Source: Tachypleus tridentatus (lineage: Eukaryota; Arthropoda; Merostomata; Xiphosura; Limulidae). Taken from it: a stretch of 64,000 nucleotides of DNA. The stretch is taken from positions 34,151,771-34,215,770 of the forward strand of contig NW_027467782.1 in assembly GCF_004210375.1 (NCBI RefSeq). The letters are read 5' to 3'. The notes below the pieces were generated by a model, which was not told the origin of the DNA, did not search any database, and saw only the letters and a list, made by a program, of their open reading frames with translations. Both the position numbers and the translations under genes were made by a program. Of this stretch, positions 26,382 through 64,000 are shown in pieces (position 1 is the first letter of the stretch; each line of letters starts with the position of its first letter).

Positions 26382-27756
26382 TTAAGCTCAGTCAATTGGA
26401 ACAACCACATGACCTCTTTGTACCCATTCAAGGTCTTTATAGTTTTAAATACTTCCAATTTTCAATAGTGTACATATTTACAAAATTTTGCACACTTTCA
26501 GTTAACATCATAAATAATATTTTTTTGTGAAGTAGTTTTAGTAAAATAAAATAAAGATTTGTCCATGTTTATATTAACCAACCTCATAACCACCAAAACA
26601 AAATCAATCTAAACTAACCTTTTCTGATTTTCGGAATGACTCTAAATTGTAACACAAAACTACATTCATTTACCCTAAGTAGTTTTAAGGTCCTAACAGT
26701 GTACATCTATTTGTAATTAAAAATTTATTTTTTTATATGCTCTTTGAATCCTGTCTAACTATTATCTGTGTCACTCAAGGCACATACAGCTCACGTTACA
26801 GTAATGAATCACATTAACTACAAGATACTTGCACGTGTGGCTTGTGAAACATTTTTATTATATTATTATTATTTTCTTTACATAATCTATTCTTAACTAA
26901 TCTAAAAAGAGATCCACATTTTTACATTTTGATTAGTTTTAATAATAATAAATAAAGAAGAAACAAGACAAATATGAAATATTGTACTTGTAGATTGTTG
27001 AGAACACTATATACTACTGTTTTTACACTAATGGTAGTAATGCATTAAATAATTTTCATTTAATTAAATAACGGACCAAAGAACATATACTGATAATATG
27101 TAAAAAGCAGATAATTTCTCCTAACACTCAATTTTTCTACCTTTCTACCTATGCAACAAAAGCTGTTGCAAATCTGTCCAAGCTAGCCATTAAATTTCCC
27201 ATGAGAAAGAAGGTTGTTCTCTGAGTAAAACTAATGTTTATTTTTTCAGAATACAACATTATACAATACATCATTTGATAGATCAAAACCTTGACTTTCT
27301 GTTGGTTATAAATAATATATAAATAAATCTAAGAGAGAATAATCACCAAAACCTGAAAGAAAGGATATGACAGCTTGATGTGGCAGGAATGGGGTCTGAT
27401 TTTTTATTTATAGCTTTGTAGCCAAACAAAATTGAAGGCTATAAAAATTATGGTTTGTCTGAGCAATGACAATTTTATTCTGAGTAATTTAAGTTTAATT
27501 TTGTACTTTTTGAAAGGGTGGTGAATTAAATAGGGAAGACAAGATACCTAAAGTAAATATGTCATGTGTTATACTAAGAGAAATTCAGGAAGTTTTTTTT
27601 AAAATATGACCTCGTAGAATTAAAAACTTATAAAGATATGAATCATTAGCTAAAATTTTAAGCTTTTCTAAATAATATAACATAAAAGAAAAAATAGTTT
27701 AATAAAAGTTTAAATGTAAGACACTAAACGATACCTTGGGTGAGAAGATTAGTTAA
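26382..27756. mobile_element. TTAA-type element crossing the duplication boundary
   Basis: Carries the family's CATGACCTCTTTGTACCC and ATGTAAGACACTAAAC blocks and ends TTAA (27753-27756). The left tip is truncated to GCTCAGTCAATTGG. The duplication starts inside it at 27446, so unit 2 begins with only its right 310 bp (47980-48290). Confidence 0.55.
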
Positions 27757-27789
27757 CCAAAGACTTTTAAAAATGCTGGTCTTTCATTT

Positions 27790-28022
27790 TTGATTTGTTT
27801 ATGAATTTTGTGGAAAACTATCCAAGGGCTTTACACGCATAGCTGTCTCCAATTCTGAAGTATAAGACTAAAAGGAAGGTAGCTAAGGAACAGCCAGTGA
27901 GATTTGATAGTTACACTTATTGCACCCACAAGCCCCACAGAACACACATTTGCAGTAATGAAACACAGATAATAAAATCTTAGATTCACAGTTTGAGCAC
28001 ATTAATCACTTGGCTGCACCAA
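27790..28022 (-). mobile_element. Diverged SINE (unit 1)
   Basis: TAAGACTAAAAGGAAGGTAGCTA and CACATTAATCACTTGGCTGCACC align in order with body and head of the 7.1-kb SINE. Repeated in unit 2 at 48324-48556. Confidence 0.65.
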
Positions 28023-28296
28023 ACTAATGGTCCATTATGAAAGATTTTACAAAAGCTCCAGATAAAAGAATAATGTGCAGCAGTATAAAATATGAATGTA
28101 AATAACAAAAACATGATATGAGTATACACATACTTATCTATTCATTTTCTCAAAGTGTAATAGACATATAAAACTTTGTTAGCTAGTCTAATTTATAATG
28201 CAAAAATACACTACAGTTCTACAAAACACCTTTATCCAATACATACATACAAGTTTCATATTTTAAAAACCCTTTCAACTCTACAGTTTATCTTAC

Positions 28297-28476
28297 CTGT
28301 GAGTTCACCATTTTTCCACAATGATTTAATAGAACTTCACTCAGAGATTCAATCAACTTCTTGGGAACAGAAAAGTTTCTACTTTTAAGGTAGCTCATCA
28401 GGTAAGTAAATGTGTCAACAATTGCAACTCCAAGTTTTTCAGTTGTAAGTTGATACAAACCATACCTATCTAAAAT
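28297..28476 (-). CDS. ATR: ATR-like exon, N-terminal HEAT repeats (unit 1)
   Basis: This 180-nt exon has a TTTCAG acceptor, a CAG|GTAAGA donor and 60 open codons beginning ILDRYGLYQL. It aligns loosely with the ATR segment just before the Ser428 linker (FEDGVLMRLKSDLL...YFLKFVP). Both ends are phase 0, so it fits its neighbours. A near-identical copy sits at 48831-49010. The copies differ by a Pro versus Phe codon (28363-28365 against 48897-48899), caused by two adjacent base changes. Confidence 0.7.
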
Positions 28477-29223
28477 CTGAAAGAATCAACTAGTTCACAT
28501 ACATTTAAAGACTCACAGAAATGGTTAAGTGAAATGAAATGTAAATGATAAACCTTAACTTTAAAAACTGTACTAGTGATAAAGTATTTTCTTTTCATAA
28601 GCCATTGTGCCAATATCTTATAAAAATAATTCAAAATAAAGAATCTGTAAAGTTTATTTTTCTTTTTTGTCATACTCTTTTCCTTTATATATAAACTCTC
28701 AGATCTAAAGTTTGCAATAGTTAATTTATTTGAAACCTACAACTAGCTAGTAGACAAGCAAAAAAAAGTTATAAAATAAAAATTATTTTAGTTTACTTTC
28801 TGTAAATGTAAACATTTTATTGCCTGAAAAAAGACCAAAATAAAACCTGTGTGTTAGCCCCGAAACACACTTTCAAAATTCAAATTTAATTCTGAATTTC
28901 TTTATGGTTTGGTATCAAACACTTTCAGAATACTTAGAACTAATTTTACTTTGTTTTGTTCCTACGTTTGATCAGTTTAACAATTATGCAACTAGCTTAA
29001 GACATATAGCTACTTTAAAAACAAATGTTTTCTTCATGAACACATTGGAAACAAATTATAACAGAAGTTCTTGGAAGGTTTCTGACTTGTTTGAATGAAT
29101 AACTACATACTATTCTGAATAAAGAAAAATAAACCAGTTCTACTTATAAACAATCTCAAATGTGGGAGGTAAAGAAAAAAAATTATTTTTCTAGGTTACA
29201 CTGAAGGTAGTAATTATCTTCCT
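28477..29223. other. Intronic, nothing recognised
   Basis: AT-rich intron. Readings at 28470-28673 (minus) and 28904-29098 (plus) have no domain and recur in unit 2 only because the units are nearly identical. Confidence 0.55.
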
Positions 29224-30330
29224 TAGTTGGTTGGTTGGTTGATTTGGTGTTTTATGGCACAAAGCAGCTGGGCTATCTGTGCTAAACATCCAGTAAAAAG
29301 ATAAAATTAAAGTAAAATAAAAGAAAATTAAGGTAAAAAAAAAACAAAGTAAAAAAACCATAAACCAATGTTTACATCTAGTCTAAAGCATTAAAACAAA
29401 ACTACAGTAATACAAGTTGTAGAGGACTTTCTGCAGCATAACTGTAATTATCATAACTCGCTAGGAAGATTAAAAGAGATAAGTAACGAAAACCATCATC
29501 AGTCACCTGTAGCTGGCCTTTCCAGTCTTGGTTCCAAGTTATTTGATGTTATAGCTATTTTCAAAAGTAAAGTAATTAAAGTTTTAAAGGAAGTGTAGCA
29601 AAATTTTAATAGTAACTTGCCAGGATGACTAACAGGTAGTTCAAACAGCAGCGTTAGTCACCTAAGTAGACCTTTCCAGTCCTATTTGAGTTACTTGACT
29701 TTACAGTCATTTTCTAATTTCAAATCAAACTAGATAGACTGTGATTCTCCAAAGGGATTCTCATCAAAGAAGGTCTAAAGAAACTTAAATGGCATTAGAA
29801 AGACTGATGGCCTTTAAAAAAACTAAAAACATTTCCAAGGTGGACAATGTCATTATGGACAAACCTTAGGACAGAATATGGTGAAAATGGCACCATCGTT
29901 GATAGTCATAACGATGGCAAGAAAGTAAAATGTGGTATACAGTGACCTGAGTATCACACAGACAACATAATGGTGTATCAGTTCCAGATAAATGAAAACA
30001 ATGAGTTAAAAACTGTGACCAATGCATAGTCTAGTTAGAACAACTTCCTCCTTCCGATCCTTACGGTAACAAGGACAGCCAAAGTCTAATACAGGGTTGT
30101 ATTTGGAAAAGCATGTTTTTGCATTGCTCACTCCAAATTGACTGCGAGATGGCACAGAGCCAAGCCTTGAATACAGGACCATAGTCCATGTATCAGACAG
30201 GCACAGCGGTGATAGTGCCAGAGCAGATAGACTTAGCTGCAGTGTCGGCAAGCTAGCTTCCATGAATACCAATATGGCCCAGTATCCAGAAAAACTGAAT
30301 AGAAGTAGATGATAAAGAGAAATGGGCCAG

Positions 30331-30612
30331 TCAGTTGTGAATATTGGTGACAACAGGGTGTGAACCAATGTGAAGCGATTCTAGGGCCAGCAGAGAACTA
30401 AGCGAGTCAGTATAAATCATGCAGTTTGAGTACTGCTTAGCTTCTATGTGATCCAGGGCAAGAGAGATGGCATACAGTTCAGTAGTAAACACAGAAGCTG
30501 TAGAGGGGATTCTACGTGCAACCATGGTAGAGTCCACACAGTCACCTGATTTTGAACCATCTGTATAAACAGGAATGGAAAGATGGTTCAAAAGATGTTC
30601 AACAAATAACAA
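30331..30612 (-). pseudogene. LINE RNase H domain (unit 1)
   Basis: VYTDGSKSGDCVDSTMV gives the first RNase H Asp, TTELYAISLALDHIE the catalytic Glu, and IYTDSLSSLLAL the second Asp. This is the standard order for retroelement RNase H, which removes the RNA strand after cDNA synthesis. In unit 2 a single lost G (GGGG against GGG) breaks this frame. Confidence 0.85.
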
Positions 30613-31060
30613 ACAGTATTTCCAATCAGGAGTGTCTACTTTTCTCAGATAGCTTTAAGATAATTCACAATTGGGGATGGTAATAAACCATGGTGGGATG
30701 GGCTGACCAGTGGATACAGCAATGTTATCCAACGACAGACCCAATTCATCCAACTATGACTGGATATGAAGGCTAAAAGGAGCAATGGCATACCGTCTGG
30801 TCTGAAAAAGCATGAGCCAACGAGGAAAGAAAACACAACCCTAGATGGGATGCTTTGGTTAGGAACAAAGTTTCAAAGCATATAGTAAAGACAGTTGTAA
30901 ATGGCAGAGGTGCAAAAAAGGTTCATGAGACTATGTATAAGCTCTGAACTGGGGAAGTACAGAAACCCCCAGTGCAGAGCTGAAGTCCTTAATGATGAAT
31001 AGTGTCCAGCATCTTTAAGGCCAATGGTCTGGCAGAGCCATAGACCAGTGATTCATAGTC

Positions 31061-31312
31061 GAGGTGGCCGAGCATAATCCAAGTGTGTTAAGATTCGAAT
31101 TCCCATCACATCAAACATGCTCACCCTTTCAGCCATGGGGCATTATAATGTGACATTCAATCACACTATTTGTGGGTAAAAGAGGAGCCCATGAGTTGGC
31201 AGTGGATGGTGATGACTAGCTGCCTTCCCTCTAGTCTTACACTGCTAAATTAGGGACAGCTAGCACAGGTAGCCCTCGAGTAGCTTTGCACGAAATTCAA
31301 AAACAAGCAAAC
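31061..31312 (+). mobile_element. SINE nested in the LINE (unit 1)
   Basis: Head TGGCCGAGC...GTGTTAAG with box B-like ATTCGAATTCCC, then the common body (ACTAGCTGCCTTCCCTCTAG, TAGCTTTGCACGAAATTCA) and an A-rich tail. CATAGTC flanks both ends (31054-31060, 31313-31319). It interrupts the LINE between RT and RNase H, so it is younger than the LINE insertion. Confidence 0.9.
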
Positions 31313-31328
31313 CATAGTCCAGTGTCGG

Positions 31329-32110
31329 TCAAATAAGAGCACGATATATCTTTAGCATAGAACATCGATCCACTCCACAAGTGATGGAAGAGAGGACAAG
31401 GAGGATGTTCAGTGCTCTTGTACATTTGACCTGTAGCTGCTTGATTTGTGGTATAAAGGTCAGCTTACGGTCAAAGATAAGCCCCAAGAACTTAGTCTCA
31501 AAGACCTCAGGCAGCACAACTTCACCGCTATGGAGTTCAGGATCAGGACGAATACCCCATTGGTGACAGAATTGCATGCAAACTGTTTTAGTGAGAGAGA
31601 AGGTAAAGCCCTTTGCTGTGATCCACTTCAGTAAACAATTGAGAGCAGTTTGTAGCTGCCGCTCAATATACCTCATGTTCAATGACTGGCATGAGATGTG
31701 AAAGTCGTCGATATAGAGCGTGTTTGCAACAGTGAGAGGGAGTTGTTCAGTGATGGCATTAATTTTTATACTGAAAAGTGTGACATTCAGAACACAGCCC
31801 CAAGAGACTCCAAGTTTCTACAGAAAAAATGGTAAAGTGTTGAACCCACATGAACTTGGAATTGCCTGACCATTAACAAATTTTTAATAAATGTGGGCAA
31901 ATGGCCACGTAACTCATATCTATGCTGTCTCACAAAATGCCATATCTCCATGTTGTATTATAAGCCTTCTCAATGTCAAAGAATATTGATACAAGATGTT
32001 TGAGAAAGGCTTTTCTGACTGACGTTTCAAGTCGAATCAGGTGGTCCATGGTGGAGTGCTGTCATCGAAACCCACAATGGGTGGGAGAGAGGAGGTTGTG
32101 TCATTCAAGA
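31329..32110 (-). pseudogene. LINE reverse transcriptase domain (unit 1)
   Basis: Minus-strand pieces include FDIEKAYNTTW (first catalytic Asp region), a stretch resembling SWGCVLN in place of the usual PQGSVLSP, and LYIDDFHI, the F/Y-x-D-D motif holding two catalytic Asp residues. The thumb-like segment follows in the open reading 31329-31682 (ITAKGFTFSLTKTVCMQF, FLGLIFDRKLTF). Frame breaks separate the parts. Confidence 0.82.
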
Positions 32111-32416
32111 ACCAAACTAGACAAGCATTAACCATCCTTTCTGAGGTTTTACAGAGACAGCTCACTAGATAGTAGTTTGAAGGAATCTTGGGATCATTCC
32201 CAGGCTAAGAAAAAGGTAGGACAGTTGCCTGGTACCAGGCATCAGGAAAAACATTCTCCTGCCAGACCTGGTCAAAAACAATCAGAAGAATAGTAAGAGA
32301 AGCAGGAGATAGATGGTGCAGCATTTCATAGTGTACATCATCAGATCCAACTGATGAAGGGCCAGTTTGAGTTTCACCAGTGTAAAGGGATGATTAGAAT
32401 CATAGAGATATTCAGC

Positions 32417-32690
32417 TCAAAAGGACAGAAGTGTTTGCTCTTCCTGAGTCTTGATGGCTAAAAAGGTGGAGGAAGAAGCAGAAGTGCTAGATTCCCAACA
32501 AAAGTTTTCACCTAGAGTATCAGCAATGCTCCAGGTATCAGCTACTTCCTGACCATCAGGGAGCAAGATCGAGAGGGGGATGGAATTATACTGCCCATTG
32601 ACCTTCTGAACCTTGTCATATATGACTTTAGAACTGGTGGTAGAAGATATGCTAGTCATGAACTTAATTCAAGATTCCCTTTGGCTTTGG
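32417..32690 (-). pseudogene. LINE ORF2 pre-RT segment (unit 1)
   Basis: The minus reading contains SKVIYDKVQKVNG, LPDGQEVADTWSIADTLGE and STFLAIKTQEE. This is the spacer typically found between endonuclease and reverse transcriptase in such LINEs. The frame ends in a stop at 32417. Confidence 0.65.
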
Positions 32691-32700
32691 CATCTTACCC

Positions 32701-34065
32701 ACTAAGCACATTTCTAAAACTCAAATCAGTTTCAAAGAGTTGATCTCAAGCTGTCAACAACCATGTGACAGTTGAGTTACAAATATCCTTAATGAAAAGC
32801 ATGCATCAACTTATTAAAAGTTCTCCAATGTTCTTACCTTCCATGACTTATTGTGCAGACACTAAGAAAACATAAAAAAGCCCTGCTTTCCCAACATAAA
32901 GAAGACTTAACTGTTTGCTGTTGTGGTTCTAAGAATGAAAGTAAAAAATAATATGTAACAAATGTCAACCACATTACAACTGCTACATCCATGCTAGTAA
33001 GACCTTGTTTAATGCCAGGACTTATAGGTCCATCTGGGATATGACAGACACAACAGTGAATGAGATGCTATTTATGATGAATTTCTCCCAGTTGTGTATA
33101 AGAATATATTATAGAGGTATGTAACTATCTGCAATTCACTTTGATTCTAACAATATAAAACTCAAATCAATTAACTTTCCTCCAAAACACTAAAAGCAAA
33201 TATCCCATTGAAGAGGAACAGTGTGTGTCATACAGAACACCGGTTCCAGAGAAGTAGAGCTCTTAAGCTCCTAGGAAGGTAAGAAGCTGGGCATTAACAA
33301 ATGAGGTAAGTGATAAAACAGAGTTTAAGTAGGATTCTGAACTACAGTAAAAGATCATGAGAGAATTTAGTGAAGCAGACTAACCTGGAAGATATTCTTT
33401 TCTGGAGGGTGCCTTCCTCTTCATGTGCACTCATTAACAATAAATACAAATGTATAAATGGGAGTTAAGAAAAAAAAACTTGTAGAACCACAGAAATTTT
33501 CAGGTCTGGTCAAAAGTAGTGGCAATCACATGTGAACGGGGTCAGAGTGCAAACTACTATCTTAATTTTGTAATGGAAATTTCTCAGTAGTAGCTAAAAA
33601 CTGGGAATGTTCCTGGGAATAAAGGATCTTTTATTTTAATTTGAAAAGAATGGCCAAGTTAGTTGGCACCCAAGGAACATCACAAAAATAAAACAGAGCC
33701 AAGTATAGGCTTGACCATTCTTTCACAGTAATATGGGAAGTGTAAATAAAAGTTAGGAAAATAAATAAAAAGACAGATATATGGTGATCCCCATCTTGAA
33801 TAGAATTATAAGACCGGTGTTTTGTCTTCAATGTTTTGAAGGCTACATAAGATAGGAAAGGTACCTGCAGAGGTGCCATTAGCCACCAAATAACATCCTC
33901 TGTCAAGTTCAAGAAAGCATCACTATCTCTAAGAGCTCCAGCATAGAAGATTGAACTACTTTGAGGGCAAATGCAAAGGTATGTATCATATACATATGTT
34001 AGGGTTGGGGTGGCTCCGCTGAGGCGACAAGAGATATTTACAAAATAGATGGAAAATAATGGACC
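32701..34065. other. Intronic, nothing recognised
   Basis: May include more of the LINE at its left edge. Purine-rich in part (33220-33500). A 93-codon minus reading at 33631-33912 shows no known domain. Confidence 0.45.
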
Positions 34066-34517
34066 AGTACAAGTATCATAAGATACTGATCCATCATGAT
34101 ATACCCAGTGGTTTATGTATTATTGGTAATGGATTCTACTACCAAGAAGATAATGACTTCAAACACTCATCCAACTTCAGTACAAGTATCATCAGATACT
34201 GATCCATCATGGTATACCCAGTGGTTTATGTATTATTGGTAATGGATTCTACTACCAAGAAGATAATGACTTCAAACACTCATCCAACTTAAGTACAAGT
34301 ATCATCAGATACTGATCCATCATGATATACCCAGTGGTTTATGTATTATTGGTAATGGATTCTACTACCAAGAAAATAATGACTTCAAACACTCATCCAA
34401 CTTAAGTACAAGTATCATCAGATACTGATCCATCATGGTATACCCAGTGGTTTATGTATTATTGATAATGGATTCTACTAACAAGAAGATAAAGACTTCA
34501 AACACTCATCCAACTTA
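34066..34517. repeat. Tandem array, four copies of 113 bp (unit 1)
   Basis: AGTACAAGTATCATCAGATAC starts copies at 34066, 34179, 34292 and 34405. The second half of each copy (GATAATGACTTCAAACACTCATCC) reads like the DNDPKHSS motif of Tc1 transposases. The unit therefore arose by expansion of a piece of transposase sequence. Copies differ by a few bases only. Confidence 0.95.
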
Positions 34518-34900
34518 TGCAGAAATTAGTTAGCTAAGAAAGAAGCTGCTGGAACCATTCAAATGATGCAATGGTCCTACAGAGTCCCAGTCTCAACTCA
34601 ATTGAGTAGATCTGGGATTTGATAAATCAAAACTTCACAGAACAAAAGTTTCTTCCAAAGAAATTTTATGGGAGTGTATTAGAGACACTTAGAAGAATAT
34701 CCTACAAGAAACTTTAATTAAATATTTTACAACCATGCATGAAAGATGGGACAACTAGCACTTCCACCAAGTTTCTGTTGTACTGAATATGAAGATTAAT
34801 ACACTTCTGATGTTTCACGTGTGATTAATTTTCTATTGTCCTGTGAAAGTAATTGGATGCCTAATTTTTTACTTTGTCCTTAAAGTTTTGCACAGTACTG
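34066..34900 (+). mobile_element. Tc1-like transposon 3' remnant with internal tandem array (unit 1)
   Basis: After a 113-bp repeat array comes a decayed Tc1-type transposase end. GAAAGAAGCTGC (KKEA), a broken SPDLNP-WDL stretch near 34590-34620, and LWECIRDT and ETLIKYFTTMHER near 34670-34745 keep the family order. It ends in the inverted-repeat-like TTTTGCACAGTACTG before TA. The left terminus is missing. Confidence 0.7.
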
Positions 34901-36745
34901 TATATGATTGTGAAAAGTATCAAACATACTGTTGGTGCCAACATGCTTTGTATTCACTGTGAAAAAAAACCTATGCACAGAACAGATGAAGAAAAAGTCC
35001 CATACTATCTGTGTATAGGTTTTGTCATAGTGAATATAAAGAATGTTGACACCAATAGCATGTTTGATATACAGTCAATATTTACATTGTTCTAAATAGA
35101 AGATAATTTACATGAAAGATTCTGCAAAACCCGCTCTTCCTATTGGTTATAAGGATACCATACAAGTTAAAACTGTCACTTAGCAATAGAGCTTCTAATT
35201 TGTAAGTGAGCATGGCTTATCTTGAACTAAGAACATTTTATAATACTTTCCTCCAGGACAAGTTTTTGGAATGTAATCAAATTACTCATAAGCAACCTGT
35301 GTAAGTGTACTTTGAAAATCAACATGTTAATGTAGACATTCTATACCAGTTGTTAAAGTTGAGATTCACAACCACAGAAGCATCACATAACAACAAAAGC
35401 TATTGTTAATTATTGTTTTAGAGGTTTATTTTGAAGTAAAGAAATTCAAACTCAAATAATACAAAACTTTGAATTGCAGCATACCTTATAATAATAATGT
35501 GATTATAATGCACTGAGAGTAAAACGATTTAATTAAATATTGAAATGTAACTCAGTAATGTGCACAGAAAGCAGTTTACAACAAGTATTATTCTGATATG
35601 GTTAAGCTATTCAGGAACATTACAGTAAAGATTCAGACCAACTGCACAAGCCAATTTACCAATGCAATTAGAACAGCCCCAGATTAGATGGGAAAAAGCA
35701 AACCTGCTATGTGTATAAGGCCTTCTGAAAAAAAGTATATGGAGCATCAAGGGTAAAGATATTACAACTGAAGACAAAATTAGCTGAAGAGGTCCTTGAA
35801 CAAAGGAAGGAAGGAGGTTTGTGGCAGATAAGGTAGCTCTGTAACCAGTTATGAAGGAAGCTGAGAAGCCATAATTATGAAACAAGAACACGAAAAAAAA
35901 AGAAAATTGTTGAAAATTTGGAAAATAGTGCCTAATGCACAAACTCTGGAGCAGTGGAAAAGTTTGTCTTGAATCTTGGGGGTTCTTATAGGTGACTACT
36001 TGAACATTCCTTTCTTAGTCAATCAATCCACTGTGAAAGAGAATTTGGTTTCTTTGAGAAAGGATTAAGTACAGCCAAATATGTAACTGTTTATGTCTAA
36101 TGTGAAAATATTACTTCTGAGGTCGTTATGAGGTAGTGCTGACATAGTAATTGGACAAATTTATACTAGAAAGCTAAAATAGTAAAAAAACCATGATAAG
36201 CTAGCCAAAATAAAGAAGCTTTATTTGAATTATCTTATACACTTATTTCTCTTCAGCTATTTTCCTTATGTGGTGGCCATTGCCTTCTTCATCAGAAGTG
36301 TAAAAATTGATCCAATTAATCTAGATGCCAAGCCTCCATCATATGACCTCAAAGAAGCCAATATAATTTCCCTATCCTTTTTATTTTGATAAAGGAGTAC
36401 TTTTCCTCAAGACTATGAGTTGTTAGTTCTAAGGAATTACCATTACATTATGCAAAGGGAGCAACACAGTGATTGCAGCTGTGGTCACACAGTAACCATG
36501 TAGCATTATGCACTTACTATATACTGAGTGACTAGATATCATATATGAAAATATTTACAAGATATCCAGATTTTGATGAAGCATATTCTATGTGGAGATT
36601 TTTGTATATCTTAGTTAAAAGCTTTAAAATAATCATAATTATGTACAGAAAAATAAAATGATACCAATCTATAAGCTTGATCCAATTTTCACCACAAAAT
36701 TTATAAATTGAAAGCTCAATGATAAAATTAACCAGAAGCTCTCAC
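34901..36745. other. Intronic, nothing recognised
   Basis: AT-rich. The longest readings (34874-35095 plus, 35607-35942 minus) have low-complexity or purine-strand bias and no domain. Confidence 0.5.
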
Positions 36746-36875
36746 CTCAACCAGATGAATGGTAGAACAATACAATATTGTTCCATCCACTGAATATACC
36801 AATGGTGTATAACCTAGAACACAGACTGTCTTCTCCAACACTGAACTAAGACGGGTTTCTAATTCCTGTATGTTG
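36746..36875 (-). CDS. ATR: ATR-like exon, N-terminal HEAT repeats (unit 1)
   Basis: This 130-nt exon has a GAAAG acceptor and a GAG|GTGAGA donor. It encodes NIQELETRLSSVLEKT through HLVE, then continues in phase into ILDRYGLY of the next exon. Together they parallel EEPLSKLIKTLF...EKLCVMFEDGVL of ATR. An alternative acceptor 10 bp inside would start the exon at GAATTA in phase 0. The longer form is preferred because it joins the exon at 37780-37913 in phase. Confidence 0.65.
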
Positions 36876-37779
36876 CTTTCAAGAAATAAGGGAAAAAAAT
36901 AAACAATTATTATCCAAATTTTAAGACTATTAAATTGCTTTAACACTAGAAACTTTCTTTTTTTTTTAAAGTTCCCAGAATATTTTTGTTCTTATTCTTA
37001 TAAGCTTTTATGGGTTGCATACATCTAGAGCATAAGAATTGGCTACTTTGGTTTCTTTAGTAAGTCCCAATACAGAGACCAAAGTAGCAACCACTCTAAA
37101 TGCAGCCAAATGCAGCCCATAAAAAATTTAAATCTGTCACAATCTCTTTAGCCAAAACTACCCTAAAATATTTTTTGTTACACCTGAAATTTATTTGGTA
37201 AAGAGATCAGTCAGACTTATGTATTATCAAATATGTAAATGTTATTTTATTGTTATTCCAATTTGATTATAAAAATTTAATATAAACAATTCTAAGAAGT
37301 TATGAGTGAAAGTAAAGAAGAATATGTCAACCACACAAAATGTCTCATATCCAGTGCTGGTGAGGCTTTTCACCAATAACAGGGCTCATCATTCTGGGTG
37401 AAATGTGGCTGACATGGTAGTTGTCTTGCTTTATTTATATCAGCAGTTGCATGAGCAGAAACTACAATGATGTGAACTAAATTATGTAAGTCATTCATAA
37501 GTCAGATTACAGTTGGAATTAATAACATAATATTTAATATTTAGTTATTTATTTTTAACAACATTTATTATTTTACTTGAATTAACAGAAAGAAGAACAA
37601 GGAAATCAGCAATAAAATAAACTTTAAAATGATTTATATCTAACTCCAACCTTTAATAAAATAAACTTAAAATGCAACAAATACCTAGAACTAAGATTGT
37701 GAATTATCTAACAGATAAAACTGGATTACAAATGAAATAAAAACGTTAGATACTACAATATAAAGATATGTGTTTATAC

Positions 37780-37913
37780 CTGTGTTTAGATTGTTTTTCT
37801 GAGCAGCAAAATTTTACTTATCCAAGTAAGCAACTGAAGAACTGACAAAAAGTAGTTTGAATGTCTGGTAAGCCACTTGCACTAAGGACATTTTGCATCA
37901 CACTTAATGTGGC
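37780..37913 (-). pseudogene. ATR: ATR-like exon with an in-frame stop (unit 1)
   Basis: This 134-nt exon lies between a TACCAG acceptor and a CACAG|GTATAA donor. Thirty open codons starting ATLSVMQNVLSASGLP and including CQFFSCLLG resemble ATR LAISFLTELFQLGGLP...TFFSSFLELL. The next codon is TAA (37818-37820), and thirteen further codons then run to the donor in the right phase for the next exon. The full length matches ATR spacing, so the TAA looks like a nonsense mutation. Ending the exon before the stop would need an AT donor (GG|ATAAGT). The same TAA occurs in unit 2. Confidence 0.62.
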
Positions 37914-39554: not shown

Positions 39555-39834
39555 GGCACTTTCAGTGGACTGAGAAGTTTCCAGTGCAACTGTTTCTCAT
39601 CACCTGGCTGCAATCAGAAAGTTAAAAATTTGGGCAAAGAGGTACCACATGAACTGATAGAAGAGCAGAAAACTGGTTAGGAACAAGAGGGAGTCATTCT
39701 TAAAGCAAAGCATTACCTATGACAAGAAGTGGATCCTATATGGAAAAAAAAACCTATGCAGAAAATATAGCATACTTTGATTATTAAAACTGGTGTTTGT
39801 AAAAAATATGGAGTTTTAATTTTACATATACAGT

Positions 39835-42872: not shown

Positions 42873-43099
42873 ACTAAAGAAATGTTTTTGACTGTACTAA
42901 GTCATGAACAGTGTAATAATAGCACAGTAACATTTAGTTCTATGTAGGTAATCCAAGTAATTGTTAACAACACACAAACGTACTACATTATCTTACTTAG
43001 AAAATTATAGAGGAATCCATCAGTAACAACAGAGCATTTTACAATGTGAGGTGCACATAACATGAAACTTATTATTAACATAAACATAATATATTCATT

Positions 43100-52700: not shown

Positions 52701-53215
52701 TGAAGGAATCTTGGGATCATTCCCAGGCTAAGAAAAAGGTAGGACAGTTGCCTGGTACCAGGCATCAGGAAAAACATTCTCCTGCCAGACCTGGTCAAAA
52801 ACAATCAGAAGAATAGTAAGAGAAGCAGGAGATAGATGGTGCAGCATTTCATAGTGTACATCATCAGATCCAACTGATGAAGGGCCAGTTTGAGTTTCAC
52901 CAGTGTAAAGGGATGATTAGAATCATAGAGATATTCAGCTCAAAAGGACAGAAGTGTTTGCTCTTCCTGAGTCTTGATGGCTAAAAGGTGGAGGAAGAAG
53001 CAGAAGTGCTAGATTCCCAACAAAGTTTTCACCTAGAGTATCAGCAATGCTCCAGGTATCAGCTACTTCCTGACCATCAGGGAGCAAGATCGAGAGGGGG
53101 ATGGAATTATACTGCCCATTGACCTTCTGAACCTTGTCATATATGACTTTAGAACTGGTGGTAGAAGATATGCTAGTCATGAACTTAATTCAAGATTCCC
53201 TTTGGCTTTGGCATC
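49752..53215 (-). mobile_element. I/Jockey-like LINE with RT and RNase H (unit 2)
   Basis: Copy of the LINE at 29224-32700, with the same truncation and nested SINE. Small changes include a lost G that breaks the RNase H frame near 51030, and FLELIF for FLGLIF in the RT thumb reading (51851-52204). Identical insertion sites show that this is one insertion, later duplicated or assembled twice, rather than two insertions. Confidence 0.85.
51583..51834 (+). mobile_element. SINE nested in the LINE (unit 2)
   Basis: Copy of the SINE at 31061-31312 with the same flanking CATAGT(C) duplication. Confidence 0.9.
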
Positions 53216-54583
53216 TTACCCACTAAGCACATTTCTAAAACTCAAATCAGTTTCAAAGAGTTGATCTCAAGCTGTCAACAACCATGTGACAGTTGAGTTA
53301 CAAATATCCTTAATGAAAAGCATGCATCAACTTTTTAAAAGTTCTCCAATGTTCTTACCTTCCATGACTTATTGTGCAGACACTAAGAAAACATAAAAAA
53401 GCCCTGCTTTCCCAACATAAAGAAGACTTAACTGTTTGCTGTTGTGGTTCTAAGAATGAAAGTAAAAAATAATATGTAACAAATGTCAACCACATTACAA
53501 CTGCTACATCCATGCTAGTAAGACCTTGTTTAATGCCAGGACTTATAGGTCCATCTGGGATATGACAGACACAACAGTGAATGAGATGCTATTTATGATG
53601 AATTTCTCCCAGTTGTGTATAAGAATATATTATAGAAGTATGTAACTATCTGCAATTCACTTTGATTCTAACAATATAAAACTCAAATCAATTAACTTTC
53701 CTCCAAAACACTAAAAGCAAATATCCCATTGAAGAGGAACAGTGTGTGTCATACAGAACACCGGTTCCAGAGAAGTAGAGCTCTTAAGCTCCTAGGAAGG
53801 TAAGAAGCTGGGCATTAACAAATGAGGTAAGTGATAAAACAGAGTTTAAGTAGGATTCTGAACTACAGTAAAAGATCATGAGAGAATTTAGTGAAGCAGA
53901 CTAACCTGGAAGATATTCTTTTCTGGAGGGTGCCTTCCTCTTCATGTGCACTCATTAACAATAAATACAAATGTATAAATGGGAGTTAAGAAAAAAAACT
54001 TGTAGAACCACAGAAATTTTCAGGTCTGGTCAAAAGTAGTGGCAATCACATGTGAACGGGGTCAGAGTGCAAACTACTATCTTAATTTTGTAATGGAAAT
54101 TTCTCAGTAGTAGCTAAAACTGGGAATGTTCCTGGGAATAAAGGATCTTTTATTTTAATTTGAAAAGAATGGCCAAGTTAGTTGGCACCCAAGGAACATC
54201 ACAAAAAATAAAACAGAGCCAAGTATAGGCTTGACCATTCTTTCACAGTAATATGGGAAGTGTAAATAAAAGTTAGGAAAATAAATAAAAGACAGATATA
54301 TGGTGATCCCCATCTTGAATAGAATTATAAGACCGGTGTTTTGTCTTCAATGTTTTGAAGGCTACATAAGATAGGAAAGGTACCTGCAGAGGTGCCATTA
54401 GCCACCAAATAACATCCTCTGTCAAGTTCAAGAAAGCATCACTATCTCTAAGAGCTCCAGCATAGAAGATTGAACTACTTTGAGGGCAAATGCAAAGGTA
54501 TGTATCATATACATATGTTAGGGTTGGGGTGGCTCGCTGAGGCGACAAGAGATATTTACAAAATAGATGGAAAATAATGGACC
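53216..54583. other. Intronic, nothing recognised (unit 2)
   Basis: Copy of 32701-34065, with no recognised content. Confidence 0.45.
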
Positions 54584-55418
54584 AGTACAAGTATCATAAG
54601 ATACTGATCCATCATGATATACCCAGTGGTTTATGTATTATTGGTCATGGATTCTACTACCAAGAAGATAATGACTTCAAACACTCATCCAACTTCAGTA
54701 CAAGTATCATCAGATACTGATCCATCATGGTATACCCAGTGGTTTATGTATTATTGGTAATGGATTCTACTACCAAGAAGATAATGACTTCAAACACTCA
54801 TCCAACTTAAGTACAAGTATCATCAGATACTGATCCATCATGATATACCCAGTGGTTTATGTATTATTGGTAATGGATTCTACTACCAAGAAAATAATGA
54901 CTTCAAACACTCATCCAACTTAAGTACAAGTATCATCAGATACTGATCCATCATGGTATACCCAGTGGTTTATGTATTATTGATAATGGATTCTACTAAC
55001 AAGAAGATAAAGACTTCAAACACTCATCCAACTTATGCAGAAATTAGTTAGCTAAGAAAGAAGCTGCTGGAACCATTCAAATGATGCAATGGTCCTACAG
55101 AGTCCCAGTCTCAACTCAATTGAGTAGATCTGGGATTTGATAAATCAAAACTTCACAGAACAAAAGTTTCTTCCAAAGAAATTTTATGGGAGTGTATTAG
55201 AGACACTTAGAAGAATATCCTACAAGAAACTTTAATTAAATATTTTACAACCATGCATGAAAGATGGGACAACTAGCACTTCCACCAAGTTTCTGTTGTA
55301 CTGAATATGAAGATTAATACACTTCTGATGTTTCACGTGTGATTAATTTTCTATTGTCCTGTGAAAGTAATTGGATGCCTAATTTTTTACTTTGTCCTTA
55401 AAGTTTTGCACAGTACTG
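54584..55418 (+). mobile_element. Tc1-like remnant with four 113-bp repeats (unit 2)
   Basis: Copy of 34066-34900. The array (54584-55035) keeps four copies with the same internal variants (GATCCATCATGATAT or GATCCATCATGGTAT in the same order). Confidence 0.85.
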
Positions 55419-57264
55419 TATATGATTGTGAAAAGTATCAAACATACTGTTGGTGCCAACATGCTTTGTATTCACTGTGAAAAAAACCTATGCACAGAAC
55501 AGATGAAGAAAAGTCCCATACTATCTGTGTATAGGTTTTGTCATAGTGAATATAAAGAATGTTGACACCAATAGCATGTTTGATATACAGTCAATATTTA
55601 CATTGTTCTAAATAGAAGATAATTTACATGAAAGATTCTGCAAAACCCGCTCTTCCTATTGGTTATAAGGATACCATACAAGTTAAAACTGTCACTTAGC
55701 AATAGAGCTTCTAATTTGTAAGTGAGCATGGCTTATCTTGAACTAAGAACATTTTTATAATACTTTCCTCCAGGACAAGTTTTTGGAATGTAATCAAATT
55801 ACTCATAAGCAACCTGTGTAAGTGTACTTTGAAAATCAACATGTTAATGTAGACATTCTATACCAGTTGTTAAAGTTGAGATTCACAACCACAGAAGCAT
55901 CACATAACAACAAAAGCTATTGTTAATTATTGTTTTAGAGGTTTATTTTGAAGTAAAGAAATTCAAACTCAAATAATACAAAACTTTGAATTGCAGCATA
56001 CCTTATAATAATAATGTGATTATAATGCACTGAGAGTAAAACGATTTAATTAAATATTGAAATGTAACTCAGTAATGTGCACAGAAAGCAGTTTACAACA
56101 AGTATTATTCTGATATGGTTAAGCTATTCAGGAACATTACAGTAAAGATTCAGACCAACTGCACAAGCCAATTTACCAATGCAATTAGAACAGCCCCAGA
56201 TTAGATGGGAAAAAGCAAACCTGCTATGTGTATAAGGCCTTCTGAAAAAAAGTATATGGAGCATCAAGGGTAAAGATATTACAACTGAAGACAAAATTAG
56301 CTGAAGAGGTCCTTGAACAAAGGAAGGAAGGAGGTTTGTGGCAGATAAGGTAGCTCTGTAACCAGTTATGAAGGAAGCTGAGAAGCCATAATTATGAAAC
56401 AAGAACACGAAAAAAAAAAGAAAATTGTTGAAAATTTGGAAAATAGTGCCTAATGCACAAACTCTGGAGCAGTGGAAAAGTTTGTCTTGAATCTTGGGGT
56501 TCTTATAGGTGACTACTTGAACATTCCTTTCTTAGTCAATCAATCCACTGTGAAAGAGAATTTGGTTTCTTTGAGAAAGGATTAAGTACAGCCAAATATG
56601 TAACTGTTTATGTCTAATGTGAAAATATTACTTCTGAGGTCGTTATGAGGTAGTGCTGACATAGTAATTGGACAAATTTATACTAGAAAGCTAAAATAGT
56701 AAAAAAACCATGATAAGCTAGCCAAAATAAAGAAGCTTTATTTGAATTATCTTATACACTTATTTCTCTTCAGCTATTTTCCTTATGTGGTGGCCATTGC
56801 CTTCTTCATCAGAAGTGTAAAAATTGATCCAATTAATCTAGATGCCAAGCCTCCATCATATGACCTCAAAGAAGCCAATATAATTTCCCTATCCTTTTTT
56901 ATTTTGATAAAGGAGTACTTTTCCTCAAGACTATGAGTTGTTAGTTCTAAGGAATTACCATTACATTATGCAAAAGGGAGCAACACAGTGATTGCAGCTG
57001 TGGTCACACAGTAACCATGTAGCATTATGCACTTACTATATACTGAGTGACTAGATATCATATATGAAAATATTTACAAGATATCCAGATTTTGATGAAG
57101 CATATTCTATGTGGAGATTTTTGTATATCTTAGTTAAAAGCTTTAAAATAATCATAATTATGTACAGAAAAATAAAATGATACCAATCTATAAGCTTGAT
57201 CCAATTTTCACCACAAAATTTATAAATTGAAAGCTCAATGATAAAATTAACCAGAAGCTCTCAC
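55419..57264. other. Intronic, nothing recognised (unit 2)
   Basis: Copy of 34901-36745, with no recognised content. Confidence 0.45.
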
Positions 57265-57394
57265 CTCAACCAGATGAATGGTAGAACAATACAATATTGT
57301 TCCATCCACTGAATATACCAATGGTGTATAACCTAGAACACAGACTGTCTTCTCCAACACTGAACTAAGACGGGTTTCTAATTCCTGTATGTTG
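57265..57394 (-). CDS. ATR: ATR-like exon, copy in unit 2
   Basis: Copy of the exon at 36746-36875, 130 nt, with the same splice sites and an unchanged reading frame. The poly-A run just outside its acceptor is longer here, a typical difference between the two units. Confidence 0.62.
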
Positions 57395-58302
57395 CTTTCA
57401 AGAAATAAGGGAAAAAAAAATAAACAATTATTATCCAAATTTTAAGACTATTAAATTGCTTTAACACTAGAAACTTTCTTTTTTTTTTTAAAGTTCCCAG
57501 AATATTTTTGTTCTTATTCTTATAAGCTTTTATGGGTTGCATACATCTAGAGCATAAGAATTGGCTACTTTGGTTTCTTTAGTAAGTCCCCAATACAGAG
57601 ACCAAAGTAGCAACCACTCTAAATGCAGCCAAATGCAGCCCATAAAAAAAATTTAAATCTGTCACAATCTCTTTAGCCAAAACTACCCTAAAATATTTTT
57701 GTTACACCTGAAATTTATTTGGTAAAGAGATCAGTCAGACTTATGTATTATCAAATATGTAAATGTTATTTTATTGTTATTCCAATTTGATTATAAAAAT
57801 TTAATATAAACAATTCTAAGAAGTTATGAGTGAAAGTAAAGAAGAATATGTCAACCACACAAAATGTCTCATATCCAGTGCTGGTGAGGCTTTTCACCAA
57901 TAACAGGGCTCATCATTCTGGGTGAAATGTGGCTGACATGGTAGTTGTCTTGCTTTATTTATATCAGCAGTTGCATGAGCAGAAACTACAATGATGTGAA
58001 CTAAATTATGTAAGTCATTCATAAGTCAGATTACAGTTGGAATTAATAACATAATATTTAATATTTAGTTATTTATTTTTAACAACATTTATTATTTTAC
58101 TTGAATTAACAGAAGAAGAACAAGGAAATCAGCAATAAAATAAACTTTAAAATGATTTATATCTAACTCCAACCTTTAATAAAATAAACTTAAAATGCAA
58201 CAAATACCTAGAACTAAGATTGTGAATTATCTAACAGATAAAACTGGATTACAAATGAAATAAAAACGTTAGATACTACAATATAAAGATATGTGTTTAT
58301 AC

Positions 58303-58436
58303 CTGTGTTTAGATTGTTTTTCTGAGCAGCAAAATTTTACTTATCCAAGTAAGCAACTGAAGAACTGACAAAAAGTAGTTTGAATGTCTGGTAAGCCACT
58401 TGCACTAAGGACATTTTGCATCACACTTAATGTGGC
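58303..58436 (-). pseudogene. ATR: ATR-like exon with in-frame stop, copy in unit 2
   Basis: Copy of the exon at 37780-37913, 134 nt, with the same TAA in the same place (58341-58343). Sharing the stop means it predates the split of the copies, or both come from the same allele background. It is not a random sequencing error in one of them. Confidence 0.6.
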
Positions 58437-59347
58437 CTGGTAAAAAACAAAATGCATATTACGTTATCATTCTCACAAAAATAACAAATCTTTAGACCTA
58501 AAAATCATTACAGAAACTAAACTTTCTAAACAAATTCAAATAAAACAAAAATATGCCTCCAGCTTCAGCATGCTAAAGATATATTTTTCTAACTGAAGTA
58601 TAGATATACACATAAAAAAACTTACAAAAAAAATTAAAACACTAAGACATTTCTTTAATTCATTTTAATTATTTATCTAAAAAGATGAATTTTTCTTGTT
58701 TGAATGTGTTACTGATAACACAGACTTCTATGATATTTTCATTAACCTTTTGATCTGGAATATATCAACTACCGAAAAGTTGTTTATCAAGAATACAATT
58801 AAAGTTACAGGCAATGAAGTTTGTGTTTTAAGTAGAAATAATTTGAAGCACAAACATCAAATGAATGAACATGAAAAAACCTATATTCCTATAACTTACA
58901 CTAGAGAAAATGAAGCTTTTTATTTTTTCAAAGCTGGCTAATTTAAGTATTGTTAAGAAGAGCATTTATTAGGTCATTTTATATGAAATGGCTTATTTTC
59001 ATAGTAGAACAGTGACTGTGATTAGAATAAGCTGAATACAGTAACTTGACTGTATGCTATTTGATACTGATGAGAGTGCCGTGTTTTACATTTGCCTGTC
59101 ATGTCAAGTTGTATTATAATTGTTTTGTATTTCTTTGGAACCCTACACAAGATGATTTCTTCAAAAGAACTGAAACTACTTTTTTGATATGAGCTCAAAT
59201 TGGCAAAAAAATGCAGGCAAGGTTGCTAAAACATCAATTTGGCACTGGAACAAGGGAATACTTCTCAAACTACTATTCGTTCTGGTAATAGGAACCTCGA
59301 GAATAAACACTGAGGAAGGTTTCAATCTGTTGTGAATGAAGAAACAG

Positions 59348-60075
59348 TAAGTGCTACTGCATAAGCTAGCCCACACATGACAGTTCATATTAAGTGCTAC
59401 TGCATAAGCTAGCCCACACATGACAGTTCATATTAAGTGCTACTGCATAAGCTAGCCCACGCATGACAGTTCATATTAAATGCTACTGCATAAGCTAGCC
59501 CACTCATGACAGTTCATATTAAGTGCTACTGCATAAGCTAGTCCACACATGACAGTTCATATTAAGTGCTACTGCATAAGCTAGCCACACATGACAGTTC
59601 ATATTAAGTGCTACTGCATAAGCTAGCCCACACATGACAGTTCATATTAAGTGCTACTGCATAAGCTTGCCCACACGACAGTTCATATTAAGTGCTACTG
59701 CATAAGCTTGCCCCACATGACAGTTCATATTAAGTGCTACTGCATAAGCTAGCCCACGCATGACAGTTCATATTAAATGCTACTGCATAAGCTAGCCCAC
59801 ACATGACAGTTCATATTAAGTGCTACTGCATAAGCTAGCCCACACATGACAGTTCATACATATTTAGTGCTACTGCATAAGCTAGCCCACGCATGACAGT
59901 TCATATTAAGTGCTACTGCATAAGCTAGCCCACACATGACAGTTCATATTAAGTGCTACTGCATAAGCCAGCCCACACATGACAGTTCATATTAAGTGCT
60001 ACTGCATAAGCTAGCCCACACATGACAGTTCATATTAAGTGCTACTGCATGAGCTAGCCCACACATGACAGTTCA
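59348..60075. repeat. Satellite-like array, about 17 copies of 43 bp (unit 2)
   Basis: Copy of 38826-39554 with the same order of variant units. It differs by single-base indels (for example AGCCACAC for AGCCCACAC). Confidence 0.96.
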
Positions 60076-60356
60076 GGCACTTTCAGTGGACTGAGAAGTT
60101 TCCAGTGCAACTGTTTCTCATCACCTGGCTGCAATCAGAAAGTTAAAAATTTGGGCAAAGAGGTACCACATGAACTGATAGAAGAGCAGAAAACTGGTTA
60201 GGAACAAGAGGGAGTCATTCTTAAAGCAAAGCATTACCTATGACAAGAAGTGGATCCTATATGGAAAAAAAAACCTATGCAGAAAATATAGCATACTTTG
60301 ATTATTAAAACTGGTGTTTGTAAAAAATATGGAGTTTTAATTTTTTACATATACAG

Positions 60357-61075
60357 TCAGCCATGAAACAAACTACTACATCAACAAAACCACTGTAATA
60401 ACTGAATGTCAAAAAGATTATTGTACTATTAAAACTTTAACTGTACTAAATAGATGTGACATCATACTAAGAGGACATACCATAGTGTTAAGAAGATACC
60501 AAACCATCCTCAGTGTAAAAAAACAAGCATCCTCAATAATCATCAACAAGTACCCTGAAGTATCAGTATTCCCAGAAGAAAACTGTGGTAACACAACATC
60601 AACATGAACACTGTACTAATATAGCAACATAAAGATCATTGTACTGACAATGCATAAACAAGGATACAATAATTAACAATATACTAGAATAACTGTAGTG
60701 TACAGGTTAATATGTTCACTGTACTAATATGCATTAACAAGATCAATATGCTGAAACAACAGCCAAAAGATATCCAAGGTAACAGAATGCCTACAAAGTC
60801 ATTATAATAAGAGCACATCATAAAGCTAGTATACTGTCTGTTCATGATGCAATAGTATACAGGATAATGACAAAAAAAAAAGAGAGAGAGAGAAAAAAAT
60901 ATTACCACACTGACAACACAACTGTATATATATATATATATATATTCAGGGAACCATCAAGCCCAACACAACACCAGAATAACAAAACGTTATGATAACA
61001 TAAAATAACTAAAGATCACTGCAATAAAGGAACAGATAAAATCCATTGTACAAAAACATATATAACAACACTGTA
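60357..61075. repeat. Degenerate minisatellite, left part (unit 2)
   Basis: Copy of 39835-40554, including the (GA)n and (TA)n runs at slightly different lengths. Confidence 0.65.
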
Positions 61076-62619
61076 TTAACTCTCTCAACACAGCCTTGAA
61101 CTGTATGACTGACCATGTGACCACCTTGTGCTTGTTTACAGTCTGTTTAGATTTAATACTTCTAACTTTCAAAGTGGTATATTTTCAAAAATCTGGCAAT
61201 GTTTCAGTTAATATTACAAGTCTCTAACATACAAAAAATCATATTTAATTAAATAAAATAAAGATTTGTCCCTATGATAATTTGTTTTGAATAATCTGTG
61301 TGAAAAGTTATTTTAATGTTAAAATTAAAATACCTCCTTTGTATATAACCCTAAGACCTCCATAAATACATTTCAAACATTTTTCAGTAAATCTTGATAG
61401 TTTATATGTTATTTTTCTAACCCAACTCAAAACAGGATTGATTAACTTGACTGACCTTGAAACCACCAAAACAATAAAATAAATTTAAAAAAACCCTGAA
61501 TTACACTTTCTTCTTTCTAGAATGACTTCATATTGCAAGAAGAAACTATATTCATTTATCCTAAGTAGCTCTTAGTTTGTAACACATCTATTTATAATTA
61601 AGGTTTATCACCATTTAAACTGCAACAAACTACTGTCAAGCCATTATAAGATGTAAAATCAAGTCAAGAAACATCCAGCTCACATTACGCTATCGAATTA
61701 CATTACCCATGAGCTACTACAACTAGTACAACAAGCTCAAGTGTCTCGTGAAAAATTATACTTATTGTTGATTTTACTTTATCTTAACTTAAAAAATATC
61801 CTTACTTATTTTTTACATTTTAGTTGCTTTTATAATTATACACAAAAAATAAACATAAACAAATAAATAAATGAAACACTTGAACAATCTACACTGTTTC
61901 TCTTGATTGTTGAAGAGAGTTAACCATAACTTTTAATGCTGCTTATATTATCGCAATTTATAATTTTATTTTATTAAATAATGCTACAAACAACATAGAC
62001 TATAACATGCAAAATTTACACAAATTTCCTTATCACTCAAAAATTTACTAGCTTTCTAGATCTGTGACAAGAGTCATTACAAATTAATCCAAGCTAGTCA
62101 TTTCTCAATGGAACGTTGGTTATACAGAACAAAATATTGTGAAATACATCATTTGATAGAATGAAAACCTTAACTGTCTATTAGTTATAGGTAACATACA
62201 GTTAAGCATAAAGAGAACTATGAACACAACTTGAAAGAGAGGATGTGACAGCAGGAGTCTGACTTTCTATTCAGTAGAAAAAAATGTTGAAGACTATATT
62301 TAATGTGGTTTATCTGAGCAACGATGATTTTAGAGAAAGTAGTTTTCATTCAATTTCATACTTCTTCCATGGGTGGTGGATAAAATCTGCCATGAGAGCA
62401 TGTGTCGTGTGTCACACTAGGAAATATTCAGGATTTTTTAAGATAGTGCGTTGCAAAATTAAGAGCTGATTATTTATATGTTATTAAAATATGGTTTATT
62501 AACAAAGGTTTTATGCTATTCTAATTGGCATACCATAACCATGAAGTTGTTTAATAAAATATTCAAGGTAAGACACTAAAACATTGTGTCATGTTCAGCA
62601 CCCAGTGCGATGGGGTTAA
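61076..62619. mobile_element. TTAA-flanked non-autonomous element (unit 2)
   Basis: Copy of 40555-42106 with the same TTAA tips and position inside the minisatellite. Confidence 0.68.
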
Positions 62620-63383
62620 AGGAAAAGATAAGACAATTGTACTATAACATCAACAAAACTACTGTGCTAAAGGAATACAAACCAGAGCATTACACCAACA
62701 AAACAAAAACACCACTATAATAAAGGAATAAATTCAAGTCTACTATACCAGAATATCAATAACACTACTGTAATAATGGAACAAAAACATGACTACTGTA
62801 CCAGAACATCAGTAACACCACTATACTAAAGGAACAGAAACAAGACTATTGTACTAGAACACCCATAACACCACTGTATTAAAAAAAACATAAACAAGAC
62901 TGCTGTACCAGAACATTAATGACACCCTGCTCTAGAGGAACAGAAACAATAGTATATCAGAATATCAATAACATCACTGTACCTAAAGGACAGAAACAAG
63001 ATTACTATACCAGAACACCACTGCACTAAGTGAACAGAAACAAGATGACCGTACCAGAACATCAATAACACCACTGTAATAAAGGAACAGAAACAAGACT
63101 ACTATACCAGAAACTCAATAACACCACTATACTAACTAAACGGAAACAGTACTAATGTACCAGAACATTAATAATGCCACTGTACCTAAGGAACAGAAAC
63201 AGGACTAATGTACCAAAACATCAATAATGCCACTGTACCTAAGGAACAGAAACAAGACTAATGTACCAGAACATCAATAATGCCACTGTACCTAAGGAAC
63301 AGAAACAAGACTAATGTACCAGAACATCAATAAACACCACTGTAGCTAAAGAACAAAAACAAGACTAATGTACCAGAACATTG
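62620..63383. repeat. Minisatellite, about 53-bp unit, right part (unit 2)
   Basis: Copy of 42107-42872, regular toward the right end, differing by small indels. Confidence 0.88.
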
Positions 63384-63611
63384 GTACTAAAGAAATGTTT
63401 TGACTGTACTAAGTCATGAACAGTGTAATAATAGCACAGTAACATTTAGTTCTATGTAGGTAATCCAAGTAATTGTTAACAACACACAAACGTACTACAT
63501 TATCTTACTTAGAAAATTATAGAGGAATCCATCAGTAACAACAGAGCATTTTACAATGTGAGGTGCACATAACATGAAACTTATTATTAACATAAACATA
63601 ATATATTCATT

Positions 63612-64000
63612 GACCCTCTGGGTGGAGAATGGCAGTTCTTCAGGATGGACATACATGGTTATCAATACCTAGCAGTTTTCGTATTAGTAGTAAAGTATTC
63701 TATTACCAAAACACTCATCAACCTGTGCAAAAATTATTTAGCTAAGAAAGAAGCTGCATCATTCAAATGATGCAATGGCCCCTCTAGAGCCCTGATCTCA
63801 ATCCAGCTATGCAGAGCTGGGATTTGATAGATCCAAAATAAGATAAATCAAAAGTTGCATATAAAGAAACTTTATGGGAGTGTATTAGAGACACTTAGAA
63901 CAATATCCTAAAAGAAACTTTAATTAAATATTTTACAACCATGCATGAAAGATGGGACAACTAGCACTTCCACCAAGTTTCTTTTGTACTGAATATGAAG
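63612..64000 (+). mobile_element. Second Tc1-like remnant (unit 2, cut by window end)
   Basis: Copy of 43100-43488. The window stops before its 3' terminus. It differs at GATGGGACAAC against GATGAAACAAC in unit 1. Confidence 0.72.

Follow-up and report, generated by a model that had tools for sequence, protein, structure and literature searches.

A probable 20.5-kb tandem duplication within a dispersed segmental-duplication family of the horseshoe crab Tachypleus tridentatus

We analyzed a stretch of 64,000 nucleotides from the horseshoe crab Tachypleus tridentatus (hereafter the window; positions 34151771-34215770 of scaffold C19, NW_027467782.1, RefSeq assembly GCF_004210375.1), in which a segment of about 20.5 kb is followed by a second, near-identical copy of itself. 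The two copies, named unit A and unit B, most probably form a genuine tandem pair that arose within one copy of a dispersed family of segmental duplications, and we put the probability of this reading at roughly 0.82 on the basis of the assembled sequence. A real tandem duplication can be separated from an assembly artefact without reads when the same junction, together with linked substitutions, is sought elsewhere in the genome; the genome searched here comprises 2,167,478,450 bases on 205 contigs.

Geometry of the tandem pair and its junction

Self-alignment, with 20 kb of the downstream contig added, placed unit A at 27446-47976 (20,531 bp, forward strand), followed by a 3-nt filler, GTC, at 47977-47979 and by unit B from 47980 to 68475. 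The window holds 16.0 kb of unit B (47980-64000, forward strand) and cannot by itself show where B ends, the remaining 4,475 bp lying beyond the window end. The original prediction, made from the letters of the window, held that the sequence from 27446 restarts at 47980 in the same order, and the self-alignment confirms this; the end of unit A, then set at 47979, moves to 47976 because the last three positions are filler. Over their full lengths, A and B are 99.36% identical in 20,560 aligned columns, with 38 mismatches by BLAST and 43 by MAFFT. In the part of the overlap that lies within the window (27446-43488 against 47980-64000), the identity is 99.43%, with 27 substitutions and 57 indels. 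Fifty of these indels are of one base and seven of two bases, and 44 of the 57 fall in homopolymers of 4-8 bases. The window contains no N, and hence there is no run of N at the join of A and B.

The junction itself carries no sign of homology. Immediately to the left of 27446 and 47980 the number of identical bases is 0, so that the breakpoint, which had been thought to share about five bases, shares none and has a 3-nt insertion instead. The sequence following the true end of B is TCCTGC, and the unit starts with AATTAT. In an alignment of 18 unit ends, 15 go on with TCCTGC, and unit A and a second junction locus described below (L002) go on with GTC and then the unit start. The best match between the 1-kb left flanks of the two breakpoints is a 34-base inverted one (E 0.01). 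Long homologous repeats at the breakpoints are thus lacking, as the original prediction had said, although position 27446 sits within an old dispersed repeat (about 26386-27729), and unequal crossing over between flanking repeats is, also as said there, a poor account of the junction. End joining typically leaves little or no homology and often a short insertion, and the 0 shared bases and 3-nt insertion found here are consistent with the 47976 end having been joined to the 27446 start by non-homologous or polymerase-theta-type end joining. In polymerase-theta end joining the insertion would be copied from sequence close by; the hexamer TTTGTC of the junction does recur 9-14 nt into the unit, but a match of this kind easily arises by chance for a 3-nt insertion. 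A hairpin was considered as the cause of the right breakpoint and rejected: an 8-bp inverted repeat is present at this place, but one of equal or greater length was seen at 103 of 1000 random positions.

A second array and the lineages of the two units

The junction of the window, including the GTC filler, is also assembled on the minus strand at C19:33075159-33075318 (L002; 98% over 161 bases), 1.1 Mb from the window's junction and in inverted orientation. It belongs to an inverted array at 33.07-33.12 Mb that consists of a first unit, a second unit without its first 1.45 kb, and a partial third unit. Of the substitutions that distinguish A from B, within the stretch that was fetched for each unit, the first unit of this array, which adjoins a normal left flank, matches A at 12 of 13, and the second and third units match B at 15 of 16 and 13 of 13, respectively. 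In both arrays, therefore, the A type leads and the B type follows. Because the junction is present at least twice on C19, both times with the A-then-B order, we suggest that copying or exchange involved the entire array at once.

We compared seven diagnostic sites in the first 1.36 kb of the unit among 25 of the 26 copies found with a unit probe (see below); the second unit of the inverted array, which lacks this stretch, was omitted, and the row of one copy (L043) is badly aligned. The B state was found at 7/7 sites in B and L002, at 6/7 in a non-tandem copy at 35.73 Mb, and at 5/7 in the copy on scaffold C4. Unit A and 13 other copies have the A state at all seven sites, and in seven others the states are mixed, the B state occurring at no more than one site in each. 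In a four-way alignment with the 35.73-Mb copy (K) and a copy at 33.53 Mb (M), units A and B divide into two segments. In the left one (27446-31636, forward strand; 4.2 kb), A is grouped with the common type, represented by the 33.53-Mb copy, and B with the type of the 35.73-Mb copy, the informative sites being 15 AM|BK, 3 AB|KM and 1 AK|BM. In the right one (31914-47976, forward strand; 16 kb), A and B are mutually closest among the four copies, with 28 AB|KM sites, 1 AM|BK and 1 AK|BM. The AM|BK and AB|KM classes are distributed differently between the segments (Fisher p 1.6e-8), and the lineage switches between about 31.6 and 31.9 kb. A is 98.7% identical to K over 20.6 kb and 97.5-98.4% identical to M. 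The left flank of A differs from the C3 copy by 3 substitutions in 3.0 kb, from a copy at 38.49 Mb (L005) by 1 substitution in 1.5 kb, and from K by 7 in 1.7 kb. The simplest history suggested by these patterns is a duplication in a B-like copy, after which the left flank and the first 4.2 kb of A would have been replaced through homologous exchange, the partner being a family member of the common, C3-like type; alternatively, the left end of B may have been converted by a copy of the 35.73-Mb type.

These observations bear on the two options left open by the original prediction, which leaned to an artefact in which two haplotypes of one locus, or one locus, were placed twice in tandem by the assembler. 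Such an artefact would produce two versions only, mutually closest throughout, and here the lineages of A and B differ in 27446-31636. Nor would it account for a junction and 3-nt filler that occur again, inverted and linked to diagnostic substitutions, at another locus, for the A-then-B order seen twice, or for 26 copies with varied spacings to neighbouring probes, which are impossible from two haplotypes; as noted above, there is also no N run at the join. We consider this explanation quite unlikely, even though the copies are 99.36% identical, indels outnumber substitutions (57 vs 27) and lie mostly in homopolymers, and the redundancy of the assembly is published: PMC7210998 gives 4,855 of 34,966 predicted proteins of the chromosome-scale T. 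tridentatus assembly (Gong 2019) as duplicated at ≥ 98% identity and reads this as redundancy and mis-assembly. The other option, a true duplication, is supported for the right 16 kb, where 28 sites vs 1 place A and B closest.

The original prediction was also right that the homopolymer differences resemble long-read noise. The four-way alignment has 83 indel events between A and B. Unit B alone carries 49 of them and unit A alone 18, which makes 67 of 83 private to one unit; in 13 more, A and B fall on different sides together with K or M, and the remaining 3 are of neither kind. Substitutions thus track the lineages and indels mostly do not. Because most of the indels are private, residual consensus error is supported as the source of most homopolymer differences, and the 1-2-base differences between the units would for the most part be residual long-read consensus error.

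Several points weigh against a real duplication with the history proposed here. The second unit of the inverted array has the A state at 34128 and the first has the B state at 30602, and the third unit is not full, its match being lost after about 3.8 kb. A further junction at C19:33.094 Mb (L027, minus strand) uses the same right breakpoint base, 47976, with a left partner at about 28896 and no filler, and is unexplained by one simple event. Each segment of the four-way alignment has its minority-pattern sites (3 AB|KM and 1 AK|BM on the left, 1 AM|BK and 1 AK|BM on the right). A single real junction locus could be represented by two redundant contigs, assembly redundancy may have inflated the copy numbers, and contigs that are chimeras of near-identical copies could have produced the mosaic pattern. 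This last point leads to an explanation in which the family and the junction are real, and the local arrangement of A and B, or the mosaic boundary, is a contig chimera. The likeness of the family copies (98.7% between A and the 35.73-Mb copy, 97.5-98.4% between A and the 33.53-Mb copy) and the mis-assembly reported in PMC7210998 would allow it; the A-then-B order at both arrays and the 28 substitution states of the right segment that are common to A and B and absent from K and M make it rather improbable. As for redundancy, the junction would probably exist even then, because it is assembled twice amid different surrounding substitutions: one alignment shows L002 and B differing at 13 sites over 1.37 kb, another at 20. 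We therefore retain a real tandem duplication as the preferred reading.

A dispersed family of segments with ATR exons

To place the tandem pair in the genome, we used probes from the unit and its flanks. A 301-base probe from the unit (28800-29100) gave 26 matches of 95-100% identity on four scaffolds, with all 26 candidates scored. Twenty-three of them lie on C19, between 3.4 and 45.4 Mb (15 on the minus and 8 on the plus strand), and one each on C3, C4 and C9; since C19 makes up 3.2% of the assembly, the binomial p of this concentration is about 1e-31. A probe from the final 1.3 kb of the unit gave 16 matches at 98-100% (15 on C19, 1 on C9) among the matches listed, for which 40 of 2,030 candidates were scored; the other 24 listed matches are of 75-79%, as expected of an older repeat. 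A probe in the downstream flank (L010) gave at least 42 matches, 26 of them on C19, with 40 of 2,175 candidates scored, and may lie in a common repeat. The spacing between an ATR exon, described below, and the unit start is about 9.3 kb or 28.5 kb in most copies and 15.0 kb in the window, and that between the start and end probes of the unit is about 18 kb or 11.5 kb in most copies and 17.9 kb in the window. These spacing classes suggest subfamilies. Segmental duplications are stretches of at least 1 kb with at least 90% identity between non-allelic places, and the values found here are 99.36% over 20.5 kb for the tandem pair and 98.7% over 20.6 kb to the 35.73-Mb copy.

Copies traced beyond the unit start or the unit end share flanking sequence with other copies. 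One alternative is that the unit, about 20.5 kb long, is a mobile element that has fixed ends and inserted beside itself. In its favour, among the 40 scored matches of a junction probe, 21 places have only the unit start and 16 only the unit end, and the spacing from start to end is frequently close to 20.5 kb, with other values of about 14-23 kb. Other copies run through 27446 and 47976 into flanks common to the family, and therefore these unit ends are not element termini; a mobile element with these ends was rejected. The transposon genes in the unit are decayed pieces, and no terminal repeat or target-site duplication is apparent at the join, although no systematic search for them was made. 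Taken with the homology that crosses the unit ends, this makes a mobile element with these ends highly improbable. The dispersed family, whose outer limits did not come into view, is probably a segmental duplication rather than a transposable element.

We also observed rearranged copies. At C19:31.67 Mb (L021), the sequence jumps back, about 1.0 kb past the unit end, to a part matching window position 43302, which gives two unit ends about 5.66 kb apart. At C19:37.93 Mb (L033), parts matching window positions 5017 and 13722 are fused and the ATR-exon stretch at 10.2-10.3 kb between them is absent. At C19:33401675-33444047, probe positions indicate two family copies with their right ends facing each other in an inverted-repeat arrangement.

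The family carries exons of ATR, of which four were found in the window to the left of unit A, all on the minus strand; those at 15671-15763 and 10242-10345 came from a search with human ATR sequence as the query. The exon at 15671-15763 corresponds to about residues 1120-1150 of human ATR and the exon at 13886-14043 to residues 1151-1201 in the UME region (match 13852-14043, E 3e-12), each with an AG acceptor and a GT donor. Two further exon stretches are at 10242-10345 (from about residue 1208; GT donor, 5' end not set) and 1241-1381 (residues 1374-1420; match 1232-1429, E 0.009, with the GT donor inside the aligned stretch). All four thus have GT donors, and two are directly preceded by AG acceptors. 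With all candidates scored, a probe from the UME-region exon gave 22 matches of 97-100% (17 on C19, 3 on C4, 1 on C9, 1 on C3), and one from the exon of residues 1374-1420 gave 28 matches of 96-100% (22 on C19, 2 on C14, 2 on C4, 1 on C9, 1 on C3). UME had 18 matches, each at the position of one of the 22 exon copies, and the best of them is on C3. A Pfam search of the genome for PI3/PI4-kinase gave 28 matches, with all 53 candidates scored, and none of them is on C19; the match at C3:67839195-67839344 is ATR (E 2e-22), and the other 27 are not assigned to genes. From the absence of kinase matches on C19 and the best UME match on C3, the ATR copies on C19 seem to lack the kinase part and the C3 locus is likely the source of the family copies. 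The kinase exon on C3 and the UME exon there (C3:67977858-67978019) are 139 kb apart on opposite strands, which points to an inversion or a contig mis-orientation at C3. In the assembly, the segment with central ATR exons and its flanks is present in many copies, mostly within C19 and in both orientations, and it would have been copied there from the C3 locus. Inside the duplicated unit, tblastn with the human ATR N-terminal sequence found no ATR exons (unit matches had E 3.7 or worse), Protein Data Bank searches with three candidate exons found no ATR and one unrelated match (E 2.9), and Pfam on nine open reading frame pieces found no ATR; exons of ATR in the unit may be missed because that part of ATR is poorly conserved.

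Other features are repeated along with the unit. Unit A contains a decayed non-LTR (non-long-terminal-repeat) retrotransposon at 30331-31817 on the minus strand (reverse transcriptase E 9e-9; RNase H weak, below the cut-off), which is repeated in unit B with its reverse transcriptase at 51851-52339. Three tandem repeats on the forward strand have equal copy numbers in the two units: 113 bp x 4.0 at 34066-34517 (54584-55035 in B), 43 bp x 16.9 at 38826-39554 (59348-60075 in B), and 106 bp x 7.2, or 53 bp x 14.1, at 42117-42868 (62630-63381 in B). To the left of the duplication, a Tc1-type transposase remnant was seen at 25328-25615 (HTH_Tnp_Tc3_2, E 9e-5, below the curated cut-off). Scans of the window gave no Rfam match at the gathering threshold, no tRNA, and no open reading frame that reaches 200 codons from a common start codon of table 11; together with the splice sites of the ATR exons, this gives the window a eukaryotic character.

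Elsewhere in the genome, the coagulin family, which is typical of horseshoe crabs, had 19 matches (best E 1.5e-25; all 28 candidates scored), and coagulin-family exons were seen at C7:19.2-20.5 Mb, several of them near-repeated, and on C11 at 9.0 and 42.9 Mb. Protein-kinase matches on C19 number 2 of the 125 listed vs 4.0 expected (p 0.45), which, with 123 of 2,257 candidates scored, is uninformative on gene depletion. The segmental-duplication family goes unmentioned in the titles and abstract openings returned by a literature search that did not take in the Gong 2019 assembly paper, a scope that does not establish its absence from print.

Known systems and the nature of C19

The family resembles intrachromosomal segmental duplications with secondary tandem duplications in having large, near-identical segments in both orientations and mostly on one scaffold, and in a mosaicism that suggests exchange between copies; it differs in that 23 of 26 copies are on a scaffold with 3.2% of the assembly, a count that comes from an assembly criticised as redundant. 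With false haplotypic duplications, the tandem pair has in common adjacent near-identical copies that differ mainly in homopolymer length, whereas here the junction recurs elsewhere with linked lineage markers and there are many copies rather than two. Ampliconic regions of sex chromosomes, such as the primate Y, likewise hold many near-identical copies of segments, in either orientation, on a single scaffold; unlike these, the C19 copies carry ATR exons with no detected kinase exon.

The tandem duplication is ordinary in its mechanism; what deserves further attention is that the family is concentrated on one scaffold. The work draws attention to a horseshoe-crab scaffold with a heavy concentration of near-identical segments that carry ATR exons. 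If this concentration reflects assembly redundancy, gene counts taken from the assembly need correction. It is also conceivable, though doubtful, that C19 is a largely ampliconic and possibly sex-limited or accessory chromosome with kinase-less ATR copies, of which the tandem pair would be a snapshot of continuing array formation and exchange. PMC7210998 notes a lack of information on the sex chromosomes of horseshoe crabs, and if C19 is sex-limited or accessory, the question of their sex chromosomes could be addressed directly through a comparison of read depth between males and females.

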